A stretch of 64,000 bases of DNA from positions 1,426,001-1,490,000 of the forward strand of contig NZ_CP113068.1 of assembly GCF_026625885.1 (NCBI RefSeq). The letters are read 5' to 3'. Origin of the DNA: Roseateles sp. SL47. Lineage in GTDB: Bacteria > Pseudomonadota > Gammaproteobacteria > Burkholderiales > Burkholderiaceae_C. Shown here piece by piece: positions 6,550 to 23,122 of the stretch. Under the pieces are notes generated by a model. That model ran no database searches. It had not been told where the DNA came from and worked only from the letters and a program-made list of their open reading frames with translations. Within the stretch, counting starts at the first letter, position 1; each line of letters starts with the position of its first letter. Position numbers and translations under genes: made by a program.

Positions 6550-6569
6550 GTGCGCCCGGCAGGGCGCAC
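6550..6569 (+). repeat. 20-bp hairpin identical to the 5' end of the group IIC intron fragment at 19340
   Basis: GTGCGCCCGGCAGGGCGCAC lies four bases after the T-run of the SWIB terminator. The identical 20 bases start the intron fragment at 19340, which also sits a few bases behind a terminator. It may be the residue of a second group IIC intron insertion. Only about 20-30 bases are recognisable here, so a chance palindrome or unrelated REP-like element remains possible. Confidence 0.4.
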
Positions 6570-17553: not shown

Positions 17554-18522
17554 ATGATTGCTCCCCCCTTGCCCACCAATGAGGACGCCCGTGTGGCCAC
17601 CTTGCGGGTGCTCCAGATTCTGGACACCGACCCGGATGAGCGATTCGATCGCATCACCCGGATGGCGCGGCGCATCTTTCAGGTGCCGATTGCGCTGGTC
17701 AGCCTGGTGGATGCGGACCGTCTCTGGTTCAAATCCTCGCAGGGCCTGGACCTCCGCGAGGCGCCGCGAGACACTTCCTTTTGCGGCCACGCCATCCTGG
17801 CGGATGACATCCTGCTGATCCCGGATGCCCTGCTGGACCCGCGTTTTGCCGACAACCCGATCGTGACCGGCCCCCCGCACGTTCGTTTCTACGCGGGTTG
17901 TCCGGTTCGTTCGCCCTCCGGACATCGTTTGGGTACCTTGTGCCTCATCGACCCCATGCCGCGAGGTTTTGATGCGGACGATCAGGCCACGCTGCGCGAC
18001 ATGGCGCACATGGTGGAACAGCAGTTTGCGTCGCTGTATGCGGCGATGGTGGACGAGCTGACCGGGCTGGCCAACCGGCGTGGCTTTGAATCGCAGGCGG
18101 GGCACGTGCTGGCCCTGTGCCAGCGCAATGACTGGCCGGCCACCTTGCTGTTCTTTGATCTGGACCGCTTCAAGCAGGTGAACGAGCACTACGGGCATGC
18201 GGAAGGTGACTGGGCCCTGAAGGCGTTTGCCGACCTGCTGCGTTTCTGCCTGCGGGCATCGGACGTGGTGGCGCGCACCGGCGGGGACGAATTCGTGGCC
18301 TTGCTAAGCGGCACCGCGATTGCGGAGAAAGATCGTGCGCTGGAGCGGCTGGACACCCAGCTCAAGGCGCTGACGCTACGGGCGCAGCGGGGCTATGCGC
18401 TGGAATTCAGCGTGGGGAGCGCGGCGATGGGAGCCGGGCAGCCGTTGGAGCTGGAAGAACTGCTGGCTCAGGCGGATGCGGCCATGGATGAGCATAAGCA
18501 GCTGCGACGGCGGGCGGCTTGA
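17554..18522 (+). CDS. GAF-GGDEF diguanylate cyclase
   Basis: 322 residues. The N-terminal GAF sensor domain (about 20-160) contains the common [28 protein letters not shown] and [19 protein letters not shown] stretches. The C-terminal GGDEF domain begins at [13 protein letters not shown] and has an intact active site TGGDEF, so it should make cyclic di-GMP from two GTP. No RxxD product-inhibition motif was identified with confidence. There is no membrane segment, so it is cytoplasmic. The start ATG at 17554 ([13 protein letters not shown]) fits typical GAF proteins of this type; the frame extends upstream into the recQ promoter region. Confidence 0.88.
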
Positions 18523-18715
18523 GCGTCTTTCGGGCACCACCTTCGACAGGTGGGTGCGCCCACCCGAGCATGGGAGCCACGCTGGAATTTTCAGCAGGAC
18601 TGGCGCCCCGGGGCAGACGGCATAATTGCGGTTATTGCCGCCACGCCACTCCCTGGCCCCCCTGGGAGTGCCGGGCGGCGACAATTTTTTAACCATACGC
18701 AAGCGGACGGCAACC

Positions 18716-19273
18716 ATGGCCTCGGTCAACAAAGTCATCATCCTCGGCAACCTCGGCCGTGACCCTGAACTGCGCTACACCCCCAGCGGCAGCGCGGTGT
18801 GCAATGTGAGCATCGCCACCACTCGCAACTGGAAGAGCCGCGAAGGCGGCGAGCGCCAGGAAGAAACCGAATGGCACCGCGTGGTGTTTTATGACCGTCT
18901 GGCCGAGATTGCGGGTGAGTACCTGAAAAAGGGTCGTCCGGTCTATGTGGAAGGCCGCCTGAAGACCCGCAAGTGGCAGGACAAGGACGGCAAGGACAAC
19001 TACACCACCGAAATCATCGCTGAGAGCATGCAACTGCTGGGCGGCCGTGATGGTGGTGGTGACGACATGGGTGGCGGTGGCGGCGGCAGTTACAACCGTG
19101 AGCGCAGCTCCGGCGGCAGCCGTGAAAGTGCTGGTGGCGGCAGCGGCCGCGACGCGGGAGATTTCGACAGCCCCCGTGCTCCGGCACCGCGCAGCGCCCC
19201 CCGTCCGGCGCCCGCACCGGCGGCCAAGCCGGCGACCGGGTTTGATGATATGGATGACGATATTCCGTTCTAA
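18716..19273 (+). CDS. ssb: Single-stranded DNA-binding protein
   Basis: 185 residues. The N-terminal OB fold ([20 protein letters not shown], then [13 protein letters not shown] and [15 protein letters not shown]) binds single-stranded DNA in replication and repair. A Gly-rich flexible linker (about 112-165) leads to the acidic tip DDMDDDIPF, which recruits partner proteins. The start ATG at 18716 gives the canonical N-terminus. The gene is monocistronic with a strong terminator. Confidence 0.96.
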
Positions 19274-19304
19274 GACCTCCTTGACCTAACTGGTAAACAG
19301 AAGG

Positions 19305-19336
19305 GCCCTAAGTGCTTGTCACTTGGGGCTTTTTTC
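19305..19336 (+). terminator. Rho-independent terminator of ssb
   Basis: GCCCTAAGTG pairs with CACTTGGGGC over a CTTGT loop, followed by six T residues. The group IIC intron fragment begins four bases behind the T-run. Confidence 0.85.
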
Positions 19337-19339
19337 TTG

Positions 19340-19890
19340 GTGCGCCCGGCAGGGCGCACCTACTTGGAGGTGAGCGTCCTCGACCAGCCCGGCAAGGGGA
19401 ATGGTTAGCCAAAGGCAAAGGTGCCGTGGGCGACTGCGCGTCTGAAGCAAGCCGGAGGGCAAAGCGGTGGCCTGACGAACAGGAAGCGGATACGAGGCGA
19501 TGCACTGCGGGTGAGGTGGCCAAGATCCCTGAAGCCGGTACTTGCTCAGAGCGGTGCGTTGTAGATCCGACCGGCATCAGCGTGAAGGTGGGTGCGCAAT
19601 ACCCGGCGAGATTTGAGCGTGTGCCCGAACGGGCTACCGGCGTCGAGAGGCGACGCGATGCGAGCTCAGAAGTCAGTCGAAGCCATCGTAGGTGCCAGCA
19701 CGGACCGAAGGGCTGAACGAGTCAGACCGAGCGTAGGACGATCGATCTTGATGCCTGTTGATGCCTGTTGATGACGCAGAAGCTGCTGAAAGCAGGCCGA
19801 ACGCGAAGCAAGCGGACGGAATCCGGGGATTGCGCGCGACGGTGCGGAGGTAGGTGCAGCGACGAGCGGGTAAACGAAATCGGAGGGCTG
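19340..19890 (+). mobile_element. 5' fragment of a bacterial group IIC intron (RNA domains I-III; maturase and domain V missing)
   Basis: Starts with GTGCGCCCGGCAGGGCGCAC immediately after a terminator, the known target preference of group IIC introns. Landmark stretches follow in the same order as in the Oceanobacillus iheyensis group IIC intron, as I remember that sequence. They are GGAGGTGAGCGTCCTC, GTTAGCC at 19404, TCTGAAG at 19441, a CTGACGAACAGGAAGCGGAT stretch near 19473-19492, and CAGAAGTCAGTCGAAGCCAT near 19667. No reverse-transcriptase frame and no domain V hairpin is seen before 20000, so the element is truncated and cannot splice. The right end is estimated from the drop in GC near 19890. 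Frames through this segment are shadows. Confidence 0.75.
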
Positions 19891-19922
19891 CTCATTGGGC
19901 TATTTTCGGCAAAATGCAATTA

Positions 19923-19938
19923 TTTGGTGCGCAGTAAA
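19923..19938. promoter_or_regulatory. Operator-like palindrome 1 of the AbiE-like locus
   Basis: TTTGGTGCGCAGTAAA, an imperfect palindrome around TGCGCA. It matches the copy at 19977 at 13 of 16 positions. It lies just upstream of the candidate -35 element. Confidence 0.6.
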
Positions 19939-19940
19939 AA

Positions 19941-19969
19941 TTACTTTCTCAGAGGAAATTCTCTAGAAT
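19941..19969 (+). promoter_or_regulatory. Candidate promoter of the AbiE-like locus
   Basis: TTACTT (19941-19946), a 17-base spacer, then TAGAAT (19964-19969) in an AT-rich patch that contrasts with the flanking high-GC DNA. The two operator-like palindromes bracket it. The -35 match is weak. Confidence 0.5.
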
Positions 19970-19976
19970 CCACATA

Positions 19977-19992
19977 TTTACTGCGCAGTGAA
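19977..19992. promoter_or_regulatory. Operator-like palindrome 2 of the AbiE-like locus
   Basis: TTTACTGCGCAGTGAA, containing the perfect 10-bp palindrome ACTGCGCAGT. It would overlap the transcription start predicted from the promoter at 19941-19969, the classic place for a repressor site. Together with the copy at 19923 it also forms an 11-bp inverted repeat (TGCGCAGTAAA / TTTACTGCGCA). Confidence 0.6.
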
Positions 19993-20003
19993 TAAGGGCC
20001 GTC

Positions 20004-21095
20004 ATGTCTGTGTCTAGCTCGACGGAGCGCCAACTCATCTCCAACTTCGTGGACGCCCTGCGGGAGCTTCCCGAGGTCGAGGCGGACCTCAACCAATGGG
20101 AGCCCGCCAGGTCGGTTGACCGCGGATACGACGCGAAGGTCAATCTACACGTCGCCGGCAAGTCCTATGTGCTGTTGATTGAAGCCAAGAAAGCTGTCTT
20201 CCCGCGTGACGTTCGTCAGGTGCTCTGGCAGTTTCGCGAAGCCAGCCTCAGACGTTCTTCAAAACAGGAGGCGGAGCCTTTCGCGCTCCTGGTCGCCGAA
20301 TCGATCTCACCGGGCGCCAAGGAAATGCTCAGAAGTGAGCGTGTCGGCTACTACGACAGTGGCGGCAGTCTCTACCTACCGGCCCGAGGTGCCTATCTGT
20401 ACATCGACAAGCCACCGCCTAAGACCTTGGCAAAATCGATGCGATCGATGTTCTCCGGACGGCGTGCGCAGGTCCTGCACGCACTGCTGGCTCGGCACGA
20501 CGACTGGTTCGGTGTCACCGGCATCGCGCAGGAGGCGATGGTGTCACCTGCAACCGCATCGCAGGTTCTCTCCGAACTGGAGCGCTTCGACTGGCTGACG
20601 GCACGAGGGCAGGGGCCGGCAAAGGAGCGCCATCTGCGAGAGCCGTCGGCCTTGCTCGATGCGTGGGCCAAACAGCTCGCCACCATTCGGCCACCGACGG
20701 TGCGCCGGTACTTCGTGCCGGGCACGAAGTCTGATGCCTTGGAGGTGCGGATCGGTCAGGTCTTCGGCGCGCACGATGTTGCCTATGCGATTAGCCACGA
20801 GGCTGCGGCACAGCGCTACACCCCGTTCCTATCCCATGTGTCCCAGGTGCGCGCGCGAGTGTTGGGCGGTGCGAATGCCGACGCGGCCATTGGCGAGCTG
20901 AACGCGCGGCAAGTCAGCGAAGGCGCCAACTTCAGCGTCATCGAAGCCAAGTCACTCGGCGAATTGCTGTTTCGCGAGCAGCGCGGAGACCTGTGGCTGG
21001 CCAGCCCCATCCAGATCTACCTTGACCTATTGCGCGGCGAGGGCCGCGCCAAGGAGATGGCAGAGCACTTTCGGAAGGAAAGGATCGGCTTCTGA
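20004..21095 (+). CDS. AbiEi-like antitoxin/transcriptional regulator with PD-(D/E)XK-like N-terminal part
   Basis: 363 residues. The C-terminal part (YFVPGTKSDALEVRIGQVFG, AAAQRYTPF, and WLASPIQIYLDLLRGEGRAK near 331-350) resembles AbiEi-family type IV antitoxins. Residues about 155-200 (LLARHDDWFGVTGIAQEAMV, SPATASQVLSELERFDWL) look like a winged helix-turn-helix. The N-terminal 110 residues contain D43 (GYDAKV) and E60-A-K62 (LLIEAKK), a spacing seen in PD-(D/E)XK nuclease folds; whether it is catalytic is unknown. The start has AAGGG at 19994-19998. The stop overlaps the next start by one base (TGATG). In AbiE systems this protein represses its own promoter by binding repeats, which fits the two palindromes upstream. 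Confidence 0.75.
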   Translation: MSVSSSTERQLISNFVDALRELPEVEADLNQWEPARSVDRGYDAKVNLHVAGKSYVLLIEAKKAVFPRDVRQVLWQFREASLRRSSKQEAEPFALLVAESISPGAKEMLRSERVGYYDSGGSLYLPARGAYLYIDKPPPKTLAKSMRSMFSGRRAQVLHALLARHDDWFGVTGIAQEAMVSPATASQVLSELERFDWLTARGQGPAKERHLREPSALLDAWAKQLATIRPPTVRRYFVPGTKSDALEVRIGQVFGAHDVAYAISHEAAAQRYTPFLSHVSQVRARVLGGANADAAIGELNARQVSEGANFSVIEAKSLGELLFREQRGDLWLASPIQIYLDLLRGEGRAKEMAEHFRKERIGF

Positions 21096-21991
21096 TGGCC
21101 AAACCGGCAACATTGGACGGGTACAGCGACCAGTACACCCTTGACTGCGAACGGGTGCTTGTGACCCTCCTTCGTGGGCTCGGGCCCTGGAAGGACTCTG
21201 TCTACCTGGTCGGGGGACTCACGCCAAGATACCTCGTCGCCGCGCGACCGCCTGTGGTGCCCGCTCACGCCGGCACGTTGGATGTCGACATCGTGATCGA
21301 CTTACAAATCCTGGCCGACACTGACGCCTATCACACGCTGGAGGACAACCTCAAGAAGATGGGTTTCGAGCGGGCGGAGAACGACAAGCAGCAAAAGCTG
21401 TCCTGGCGTTGGAACACCCGCACGGAGCACGGCGCGTTGATGGTGCTGGAACTGCTGGCCGACGCGCCTGACATCGCCGGTGGCAAGGTGCAGCCGTTGC
21501 CCACCGAGGGAACCATCTCGGCGCTGAACATCCCGCATTCGTCCATCGTCTTCGATCTGCACCAGGTCACGGAAATCCAGGCCGAACTGCTCGGGGGCAA
21601 CGGCGTTGCCATGGAGAAGATCAAGCATGCCAACCTCGTGAGCTTCACGTGCCTGAAGTCCTTCGCGTTCGATCAGCGCTTCGAACGCAAGGATGCGCAT
21701 GACTTGATCTATTGCATCGAGCACGCACCCGACGGCATGGACGCGAGCGTGGCAGCGTTTCGCAAAGAGCTAGAAGGCAAGCACGGCGCCGTCGTCGCGG
21801 CCTCTTTGGCGATCCTTCGCAGCCGCTTCGCAAGCGATGACGGCGTCGAGGGTTATCGCAAGGACGGCCCCGTGTCGGTCGCCAAGTTCGAGTTTGGCGA
21901 AGGCGATGAAGCGGCGCAGCGTGAGGTGAAGGCGCTTCGACAGCGACAGGTCTGCGACGTGATCGAACAACTCCTGGCTCGAATCGGATGA
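21095..21991 (+). CDS. AbiEii-like nucleotidyltransferase toxin
   Basis: 298 residues. The nucleotidyltransferase signature is visible: VYLVGGLTPRYLV (Gly40-Gly41) followed by TLDVDIVIDL with Asp63-x-Asp65, and a later acidic strand in GALMVLELLAD. HANLVSFTCLKSFAFDQRFE followed by RKDAHDLIYCIEH resembles the KxxA...RxKDxxDl segment common in AbiEii-type proteins. Such toxins transfer nucleotides to cellular targets and stop growth during phage infection. The start overlaps the stop of the antitoxin-like gene by one base, so the two are translated together. The exact subfamily is uncertain. It may be annotated as a generic nucleotidyl transferase, and the target cannot be read from the sequence. 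Confidence 0.72.
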   Translation: MAKPATLDGYSDQYTLDCERVLVTLLRGLGPWKDSVYLVGGLTPRYLVAARPPVVPAHAGTLDVDIVIDLQILADTDAYHTLEDNLKKMGFERAENDKQQKLSWRWNTRTEHGALMVLELLADAPDIAGGKVQPLPTEGTISALNIPHSSIVFDLHQVTEIQAELLGGNGVAMEKIKHANLVSFTCLKSFAFDQRFERKDAHDLIYCIEHAPDGMDASVAAFRKELEGKHGAVVAASLAILRSRFASDDGVEGYRKDGPVSVAKFEFGEGDEAAQREVKALRQRQVCDVIEQLLARIG

Positions 21992-22148
21992 GGGGCTTTG
22001 TGTGGCAATCAAAGCGATCTTTGTCGGCATCCACAAGCGGGGGTCAGGTTTTGTTGACGCGATGAAGTAGTCCGCACCCGCACGGGCCCACCGTCCGTGC
22101 ACATTGCCACCTGCTCCTGCGCCGGCCCGGAAGGCCCGACCGCGAAGT

Positions 22149-22949
22149 ATGCTCAGCGCGATGAATCCCAGGGAAGCAGAAACCAAGAACACGCCGTCCA
22201 GCCCTCAGGCCGGCGTGGTGCAGCAACTGTTGGCGACCGTGAGTCGCTGGTTCAATCCGGTGTACGGCAAACCGTCCGCCGAAGCGGAAACGGCCGTCTT
22301 CCAATGGACGCGTGAACCCTTGGTGGTGCCCGGACCCTCTCAGCCCGATCAAGCCCGAGTGCTCCAAGAAACACGGGCCTTGCATGCGGAACGTGTTCGG
22401 CAGATGAGCCCCGAGGCTCTCACCGCGCTGCTGGGGCCCAAGCCGCCATGGCTGGTGGAGAGCGACGCCTACATGCAGGTCTTCGTGCAGCAGGAGTTGC
22501 TGCTGACGCAAGGCCAGGTGATCTGGGGCGCGCTGGTCCAGGCCAATCGACTGCTGTTGTCTCCCGGGGAGGGAGACAGCGCCGCCATGGTCCTGCGGTC
22601 ATCCGATTCGTACTTTGACGATCATCCCCAGGAACTGCGCCGCATCGGGCAGGCCTTTTTCCAGCTCAAGGACACGGAGCCGGCCGATCCCATGTTGCGG
22701 GAAGCCGCAAGGCGGGTCAGCGACGAACACAGCCGGTCGATGGGGGAAGAAGTGGTCCCAGGGCTGTTTTCCCGTCGGCCGCTGTTCGACAACTCCACCC
22801 TGGTGTTCCGCAAGCACCTGCCGAACGGCTTGATCGCTCACGGCCTGCTGCCCATCCTCACCCATCCGTCCACACCGGCCATCCTGATTCTTCCCTTCCA
22901 GTTCTGGACGGAAGAACTGCTGCTGCGCTGGAACGCGCAGACGCTCTGA
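22149..22949 (+). CDS. Hypothetical protein
   Basis: About 266 residues, no recognised domain. There is no signal peptide and no membrane helix; the composition is mixed with a Pro-rich beginning. Recognisable stretches are PPWLVESDAYMQVFVQQELL and LPNGLIAHGLLPILTHPS. The frame is open from a TTG at 22104. ATG 22149 is the first ATG, and 22161 (MNPREAETKN) is an alternative start. It lies behind the AbiE-like pair after a gap of about 160 bases without a terminator, so cotranscription is possible but unsupported. Codon usage looks native. Confidence 0.65.
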   Translation: MLSAMNPREAETKNTPSSPQAGVVQQLLATVSRWFNPVYGKPSAEAETAVFQWTREPLVVPGPSQPDQARVLQETRALHAERVRQMSPEALTALLGPKPPWLVESDAYMQVFVQQELLLTQGQVIWGALVQANRLLLSPGEGDSAAMVLRSSDSYFDDHPQELRRIGQAFFQLKDTEPADPMLREAARRVSDEHSRSMGEEVVPGLFSRRPLFDNSTLVFRKHLPNGLIAHGLLPILTHPSTPAILILPFQFWTEELLLRWNAQTL

Positions 22950-23122
22950 GCAAGGTGCGGGGCCCGGGGTATCCCGCTGGGGCGGGCCCCTGAACTTTTG
23001 TTAGAGTCCGCCGTCCCGATACTGCGGCCTGCACCTGCAGCTCAGGTCGGCCGTCTGCGCATCCCCTGGAAGGCAGAGACGGCTCGATGACCTGGGCGGC
23101 AGCAGGGCCCTGAATTGAATTG

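Follow-up and report, generated by a model that had tools for sequence, protein, structure and literature searches.

An AbiE-type gene pair of Roseateles sp. SL47, probably the surviving head of a lost anti-phage operon

We analysed a stretch of 64,000 nucleotides of the Roseateles sp. SL47 genome (contig NZ_CP113068.1, positions 1,426,001 to 1,490,000; hereafter the window), focusing on two overlapping open reading frames behind ssb, ORF1 and ORF2. By sequence and motif, these are an AbiE-type toxin-antitoxin pair of the COG4861/COG4849 branch. The domains of ORF1, the paired palindromes that precede it, the defence genes that recur downstream of the pair in relatives, and a stub of such a gene in the window together suggest that the pair probably once headed a multi-gene anti-phage operon and survives from it. 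An initial annotation, made without database searches, had proposed a divergent AbiE-like pair in an accessory patch. Its observation was confirmed and its interpretation supported, the latter being incomplete rather than wrong. Neither of two results that would have spoken against it, a lack of similarity to AbiEi and nucleotidyltransferases or the presence of the pair as core genes in all relatives, was obtained. We add a nuclease-fold domain at the N-terminus of ORF1, paired candidate operators, a stub of 12 codons after ORF2, and the probable origin of the pair from a larger operon of which only the head is left.

ORF1 (363 aa) and ORF2 (298 aa) share a single base within the sequence TGATG, as initially described (Table 1), and a TGATG or TAATG junction links the ORF1-type and ORF2-type genes in 36 of 36 loci examined. 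For the comparison of neighbouring genes, we examined 25 genome loci retrieved through ORF1, three plasmid loci and eight loci retrieved through ORF2, plus the window. At E ≤ 0.001 we found 2349 relatives of ORF2 and 1852 of ORF1, the latter scored only among the 8000 candidates sharing most words. Conservation in so many genomes rules out that these are chance ORFs.

ORF1 matched the Pfam profile AbiEi_2 (PF09952) at 22.6 bits, above the curated cut-off of 21, and 45 of 71 aligned relatives matched the same profile at E ≤ 0.01. Its AlphaFold2 model (mean predicted local distance difference test score, pLDDT, of 86.7) comprises three domains: a PD-(D/E)XK nuclease fold, a winged helix, and an AbiEi-type C-terminal domain. 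The last two had been read from the sequence by the initial annotation and were recovered by profile and structure-model matches. The N-terminal domain fits the alpha-beta-beta-beta-alpha-beta core of the PD-(D/E)XK nuclease superfamily with its D ... (D/E)xK residues, D43 being present in 71, E60 in 70 and K62 in 67 of the 71 aligned relatives. Our most likely guess is that it senses or cleaves foreign DNA to release repression. The structure 5KQJ was matched by the model and by published AbiEi alike. AbiEi (6Y8Q) and Rv2827c (1ZEL) were not among the matches listed for the model; they were sought only among these, so similarity to either may still exist. A sequence search against solved structures yielded no useful match for either ORF. 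The alignment profiles of ORF1 and ORF2 showed no similarity to each other (probability 0.24%). Hence, a toxin-mimicking antitoxin domain would resemble the toxin in fold only.

ORF2 itself had no Pfam or NCBIfam match at E ≤ 1, and PADLOC returned a weak match to AbiEii (E 0.008). Yet, a relative with 59% identity matched Pfam AbiEii (PF08843) at 24.2 bits (cut-off 22.5), as did, also above the cut-off and with the motif residues kept, a distant relative (24% identity) encoded in the same genome. AbiE pairs on plasmid records are annotated as AbiEi antitoxin with AbiEii toxin or GSU2403-fold nucleotidyltransferase. The GG...DxD signature reported by the initial annotation is present in all 41 aligned relatives, as is each of the residues G40, G41, D63, D65, K188, A191, F192, R195, K199, D200 and D203. 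All of the AbiEii motifs I-IV as published are thus kept in ORF2, with 21 residues between GG and DxD versus 15 in the published spacing; at position 189 of motif III, ORF2 and its aligned relatives have S or A, not L. The distant relative in the same genome belongs to a second pair (L094:5819-7770; C1 about 1027.8-1029.8 kb), which has 24% identity to each ORF and the same D..ExK and nucleotidyltransferase motifs.

According to Dy et al. (PMC3985639), AbiEii/DUF1814 proteins are defined by motifs I-IV, and COG4861-COG4849 is a pair type beside the studied COG5340-COG2253. The former branch (PF09952/PF08843; PMC3985639 and PMC7251935) is the one of which ORF1 matches PF09952. Its COG4849 motif III, KLxAaxxR, reads K-S-F-A-F-D-Q-R in ORF2, with S for L, and motif IV, +DxxD, reads KDAHD. 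The type IV AbiE of Streptococcus agalactiae (COG5340-COG2253; PMC3985639) has in common with our pair the two-gene operon with the antitoxin first, the winged helix and C-terminal domain, the nucleotidyltransferase toxin with motifs I-IV, and two inverted repeats in the promoter. In the published AbiE, AbiEi binds these repeats. The window differs in having two separate short palindromes 54 bp apart. Likewise, S. agalactiae AbiEi has 23 kDa and two domains (PMC7319586), whereas ORF1 carries in addition the nuclease-fold domain. A further comparison is with MenAT, whose MenT toxins modify tRNA (PMC11375011): the C-terminal domain of ORF1 is part of the antitoxin and has no DxD pair at the strand where one would be expected, as judged by reading the sequence rather than by superposition. 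Among the open-licence PubMed Central articles listed by our literature searches, no title or abstract beginning mentioned an AbiE pair heading Qat or Hachiman operons or an AbiEi with a nuclease domain, though either may be described elsewhere. What appears to be new about the pair is the nuclease-fold domain on an AbiEi protein and the position at the head of swappable defence operons, the AbiE kind itself being known.

Two CTGNNCAG palindromes, of general form TTYRCTGNNCAGYRAA and 54 bp apart, precede ORF1 in 33 of 36 loci, a count that includes near-identical loci and, in some of them, a back-projected ORF1 start. Only one palindrome was found in L028, L092 and L093. Allowing up to three mismatches, the pattern occurs three times in the window, versus 0.21 expected, and the third site is unrelated to the pair. 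In one lineage, TTCGCTG..CAGCGAA replaces TTTACTG..CAGTAAA, a joint change of the two halves of the palindrome, and such matched changes occur in several loci.

We then compared the genes downstream of the pair in the 24 non-redundant loci left after we removed loci whose ORF2 is broken or cut and combined those of near-identical DNA (≥95% identity). We dropped L015 (the contig ends inside ORF2), L022, L024, L027, L028 and L031 (a break near the end of ORF2 or ahead of it), L078 (some 30 residues are missing at the start of the ORF2 relative), and the alphaproteobacterial plasmid loci L073-L075; we merged L008/L009/L010/L012/L030/L070, L025/L026, and L086/L088. In 16 of the 24 loci, the next gene, on the same strand, is one of three kinds, either complete or reduced to an N-terminal stub: seven encode an Mrr-like nuclease, seven a caspase-DEAD-helicase and two HamA. 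The first codon of this gene lies 10 to 25 nt past the last codon of ORF2. Such proximity, on the same strand and with only three recurring kinds of genes, looks operonic. Nine of the 16 next genes are partial or stubs (L017, L019, L020, L021, L023, L071, L087, L090 and the window), and the caspase-helicase of L029 is interrupted. L072 is of a different kind, with DruE-like and DpdE-like helicases beginning 93 nt on. Other systems follow further downstream: QatA (e.g., in L008 and L011, and past HamAB in L013), SIR2-HerA in L086 (the same order was seen in L088), and a GajA-like gene in L089, while one plasmid locus carries an annotated QatABCD. The operons of L011 (Verticiella) and L013 (Paraburkholderia phenazinium) are intact. 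Some relatives thus have genes of QatABCD, Hachiman (HamAB), SIR2-HerA or Gabija-like systems behind the pair; the window has none of these, and only 12 codons of the caspase-helicase. Upstream of the pair, the plasmid locus L072 (5515-7353) has annotated nucleotidyltransferase and patatin-like phospholipase genes, an arrangement that we take to recall a cyclic-oligonucleotide-based anti-phage signalling system (CBASS).

In the window, the DNA just after ORF2, GTG GCA ATC AAA GCG ATC TTT GTC GGC ATC CAC AAG, encodes VAIKAIFVGIHK, of which 10 of 12 residues are identical to MAIKAIFVGINK of L011 and L029 (11 when GTG, as the start codon, is taken for Met). The DNA alignment with these two loci runs from inside ORF2 across its stop codon up to 22038, and ends there. 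In a control with random stretches, drawn from the same 18 kb that contain the stub site, 10 of 1000 draws scored 6 or more, and some of these may come from that site. We looked for the caspase-helicase in the rest of the genome and rejected that it has a copy there, as there were only partial matches of 33% and 27%. We likewise rejected that the 3' junction is the scar of a repeat or insertion sequence, since the 28 bases that follow the stub are single in the genome, allowing up to three mismatches.

Under the explanation we favour, ORF1 would use its winged helix to bind both palindromes and would repress its own promoter. ORF2 would be a nucleotidyltransferase that halts growth when free, as the related MenT toxins do by modifying tRNA, and would be neutralised by the C-terminal domain of ORF1. 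In relatives, the promoter of the pair may also drive the defence genes immediately downstream. The pair would thus set their expression and make losing the block costly. In the window, the defence genes would have been lost and the pair retained as an addiction, possibly abortive-infection, module in a variable interval behind ssb. A more ambitious version is unlikely: ORF1 would be a nuclease-armed AbiEi, at once sensor, repressor and antitoxin, that silences a swappable defence operon through the palindromes and releases it when the PD-(D/E)XK domain meets invading DNA; with ORF2 it would addict the cell to this operon, and the pair would be a universal head for plugged-in anti-phage systems.

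The state of the genes in the 36 loci is compatible with a toxin tolerated only together with its antitoxin, short of proof. The ORF2 frame is broken in eight loci (L022, L024, L025, L027, L028, L029, L031 and L093); ORF1 aligns as one tblastn piece in seven of these, and in L031 both are broken. Most loci were retrieved via ORF1, which hides the opposite case of a broken ORF1 with a whole ORF2. L078, retrieved via ORF2, has no ORF1 upstream, and its ORF2 lacks the first ~30 residues, the GG motif not being seen. In full-length alignments of the relatives L007-L031, ORF2 is conserved at ~80-90% versus 59-79% for ORF1; it is unusual for the toxin to be the better conserved of the two.

Several points weigh against the explanation we favour. 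Seven of the 24 loci have none of these defence genes after the pair, nor, judging by eye, is there one downstream of the distant pair in the same genome. None of five test proteins was found upstream of the pair, and the three effector classes were upstream in 0 of 24 loci, but this count, and the Fisher value that goes with it, are biased because the proteins were chosen for lying downstream and the classes were first seen there in these very loci. PADLOC analysis of upstream genes, one per locus in 10 loci, gave one match; this is a weak control, with genes picked by hand and not always nearest to the pair. The AlphaFold2 model of ORF2 was too poor to base a fold search on it (mean pLDDT 48.4). 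Finally, the initial annotation had named an AT-rich promoter: GC content drops to 0.56 upstream of ORF1, but a scan for the strict sigma-70 consensus at 19200-22300 gave zero matches, none between or near the palindromes.

One rival we regard as rather less probable, yet the strongest of the alternatives: the pair might be a stand-alone AbiE module that hitch-hikes in defence islands and neither regulates nor guards the neighbouring genes, its position ahead of them reflecting island clustering. Defence genes cluster in islands, and this clustering is established. The absence of the downstream genes from seven loci agrees with this rival, as do the alphaproteobacterial pairs we viewed, which adjoin unrelated genes. 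The rival accounts poorly for the 16 loci in which one of three recurring kinds of genes follows so closely on the same strand.

A two-gene defence system that is not mainly toxin-antitoxin seems quite improbable. Here, ORF1 would be an active nuclease that cuts DNA and bears an arm for DNA binding. ORF2 would modify RNA or protein during infection. The near-invariance of D43, E60 and K62 would suit such a role, together with the endonuclease fold matched by the ORF1 model in structure comparison, weak matches to NucS_C in five of the 71 ORF1 relatives, and the candidate defence families that each protein matched weakly in PADLOC (PDC-M05A for ORF1, PDC-M21B for ORF2). However, the AbiEi_2 domain and the paired operators suit an autorepressor, and the member in L072 has V instead of E60. 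Least probable of all is a decaying relic without present function, which the truncated elements on both sides (intron and caspase-helicase stub) might suggest, since both frames are open in the window and keep the conserved motifs.

Table 1. Features of the AbiE-type locus, in positions of the window.
Feature	Position	Strand	Basis
Group II intron, truncated, 5' part	19340..19889	+	Rfam and DNA similarity; start 19340 read from the sequence (GTGCG)
Upstream operator palindrome TTTGGTGCGCAGTAAA (candidate)	19923..19938	.	Pattern scan, locus alignment
Downstream operator palindrome TTTACTGCGCAGTGAA (candidate)	19977..19992	.	54 bp from the upstream palindrome
ORF1, AbiEi-type antitoxin/autorepressor candidate, three domains	20004..21095	+	Pfam AbiEi_2 above cut-off; AlphaFold2 model
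ORF1 N-terminal domain, residues 7-121, PD-(D/E)XK nuclease fold with D43, E60, K62	20022..20366	+	
ORF1 winged helix-turn-helix, residues 142-215	20427..20648	+	Profile and fold matches
ORF1 C-terminal AbiEi-type domain, residues 241-363, nucleotidyltransferase-like fold	20724..21092	+	
ORF2, AbiEii-type nucleotidyltransferase toxin candidate; GG 40-41, D63/D65, K188-R195, K199-D203	21095..21991	+	
Caspase-DEAD-helicase stub VAIKAIFVGIHK, first 12 codons, GTG start	22002..22037	+	Residue and DNA alignment

The pair is accessory, as the initial annotation had it. ORF1 and the intron remnant are both missing from the 15 other genomes of the genus, which excludes a core gene pair. In the ssb region of 10 relatives, four have both flanks close, with ~5.4, 1.0, 0.14 and 6.2 kb between them; in the shortest case, some 144 bp separate the block that ends with ssb from the conserved block that follows. 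Judging by these distances, the interval behind ssb is variable. ORF2 relatives at E ≤ 1e-20 were found in four of 369 genomes of the class and seven of 399 of the order, own genome counted. Among 72,556 plasmid records, 75 matched ORF1 and 80 matched ORF2, while 50,697 phage records gave no match for ORF1 and viral contigs gave none for either protein. In another species, the same interval (L060:4254-9452) has, by eye, HipA-/HipB-like, PIN-like and helix-turn-helix-peptidase-like ORFs, so it may be a hotspot of toxin-antitoxin genes. The window also has an ORF of 262 aa at 22161-22949 without a Pfam match at E ≤ 0.001, whose relatives (~50% identity) occur in three of the 15 other genomes of the genus, and weakly in a fourth.

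Upstream of the pair, the intron remnant reported initially was recovered, and its class, given as IIC, is presumably right, Rfam saying group II only. The Rfam models group-II-D1D4-3 (100.1 bits) and D1D4-1 (49.2 bits) matched at 19424-19596 and 19634-19713. Similarity to plasmid group II introns spans 19330 to 19889, and the region 19330-19912 has 72.8% DNA identity over 96% to an annotated plasmid group II intron reverse transcriptase/maturase. Only D1-D4 models matched, with no Rfam match to domain V at E ≤ 1 in 18500-23000. By sequence, the intron is a truncated remnant, its 3' part (domain V onward) not being found. This lack of a domain V downstream also led us to reject an intron carrying the pair as cargo. 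An identical palindrome-like sequence of 20 nt, GTGCGCCCGGCAGGGCGCAC, stands behind T-rich terminator-like stretches at 6550-6569 and 19340-19359, its only two exact copies in the genome. No intron follows it at 6550 by eye, where it is perhaps a solo intron end.

Should the pair control or protect the genes that follow it, a single head module would explain the expression and co-retention of differing anti-phage systems on mobile DNA, covering Qat, Hachiman, SIR2-HerA, Gabija-like systems, the Mrr-like nuclease and the caspase-helicase. There would then be a direct tie between toxin-antitoxin addiction and the way in which other defences are controlled. With its nuclease-fold domain, the AbiEi antitoxin offers a testable candidate for what the pair senses, and the window would show the aftermath of cargo loss, in which the pair remains.

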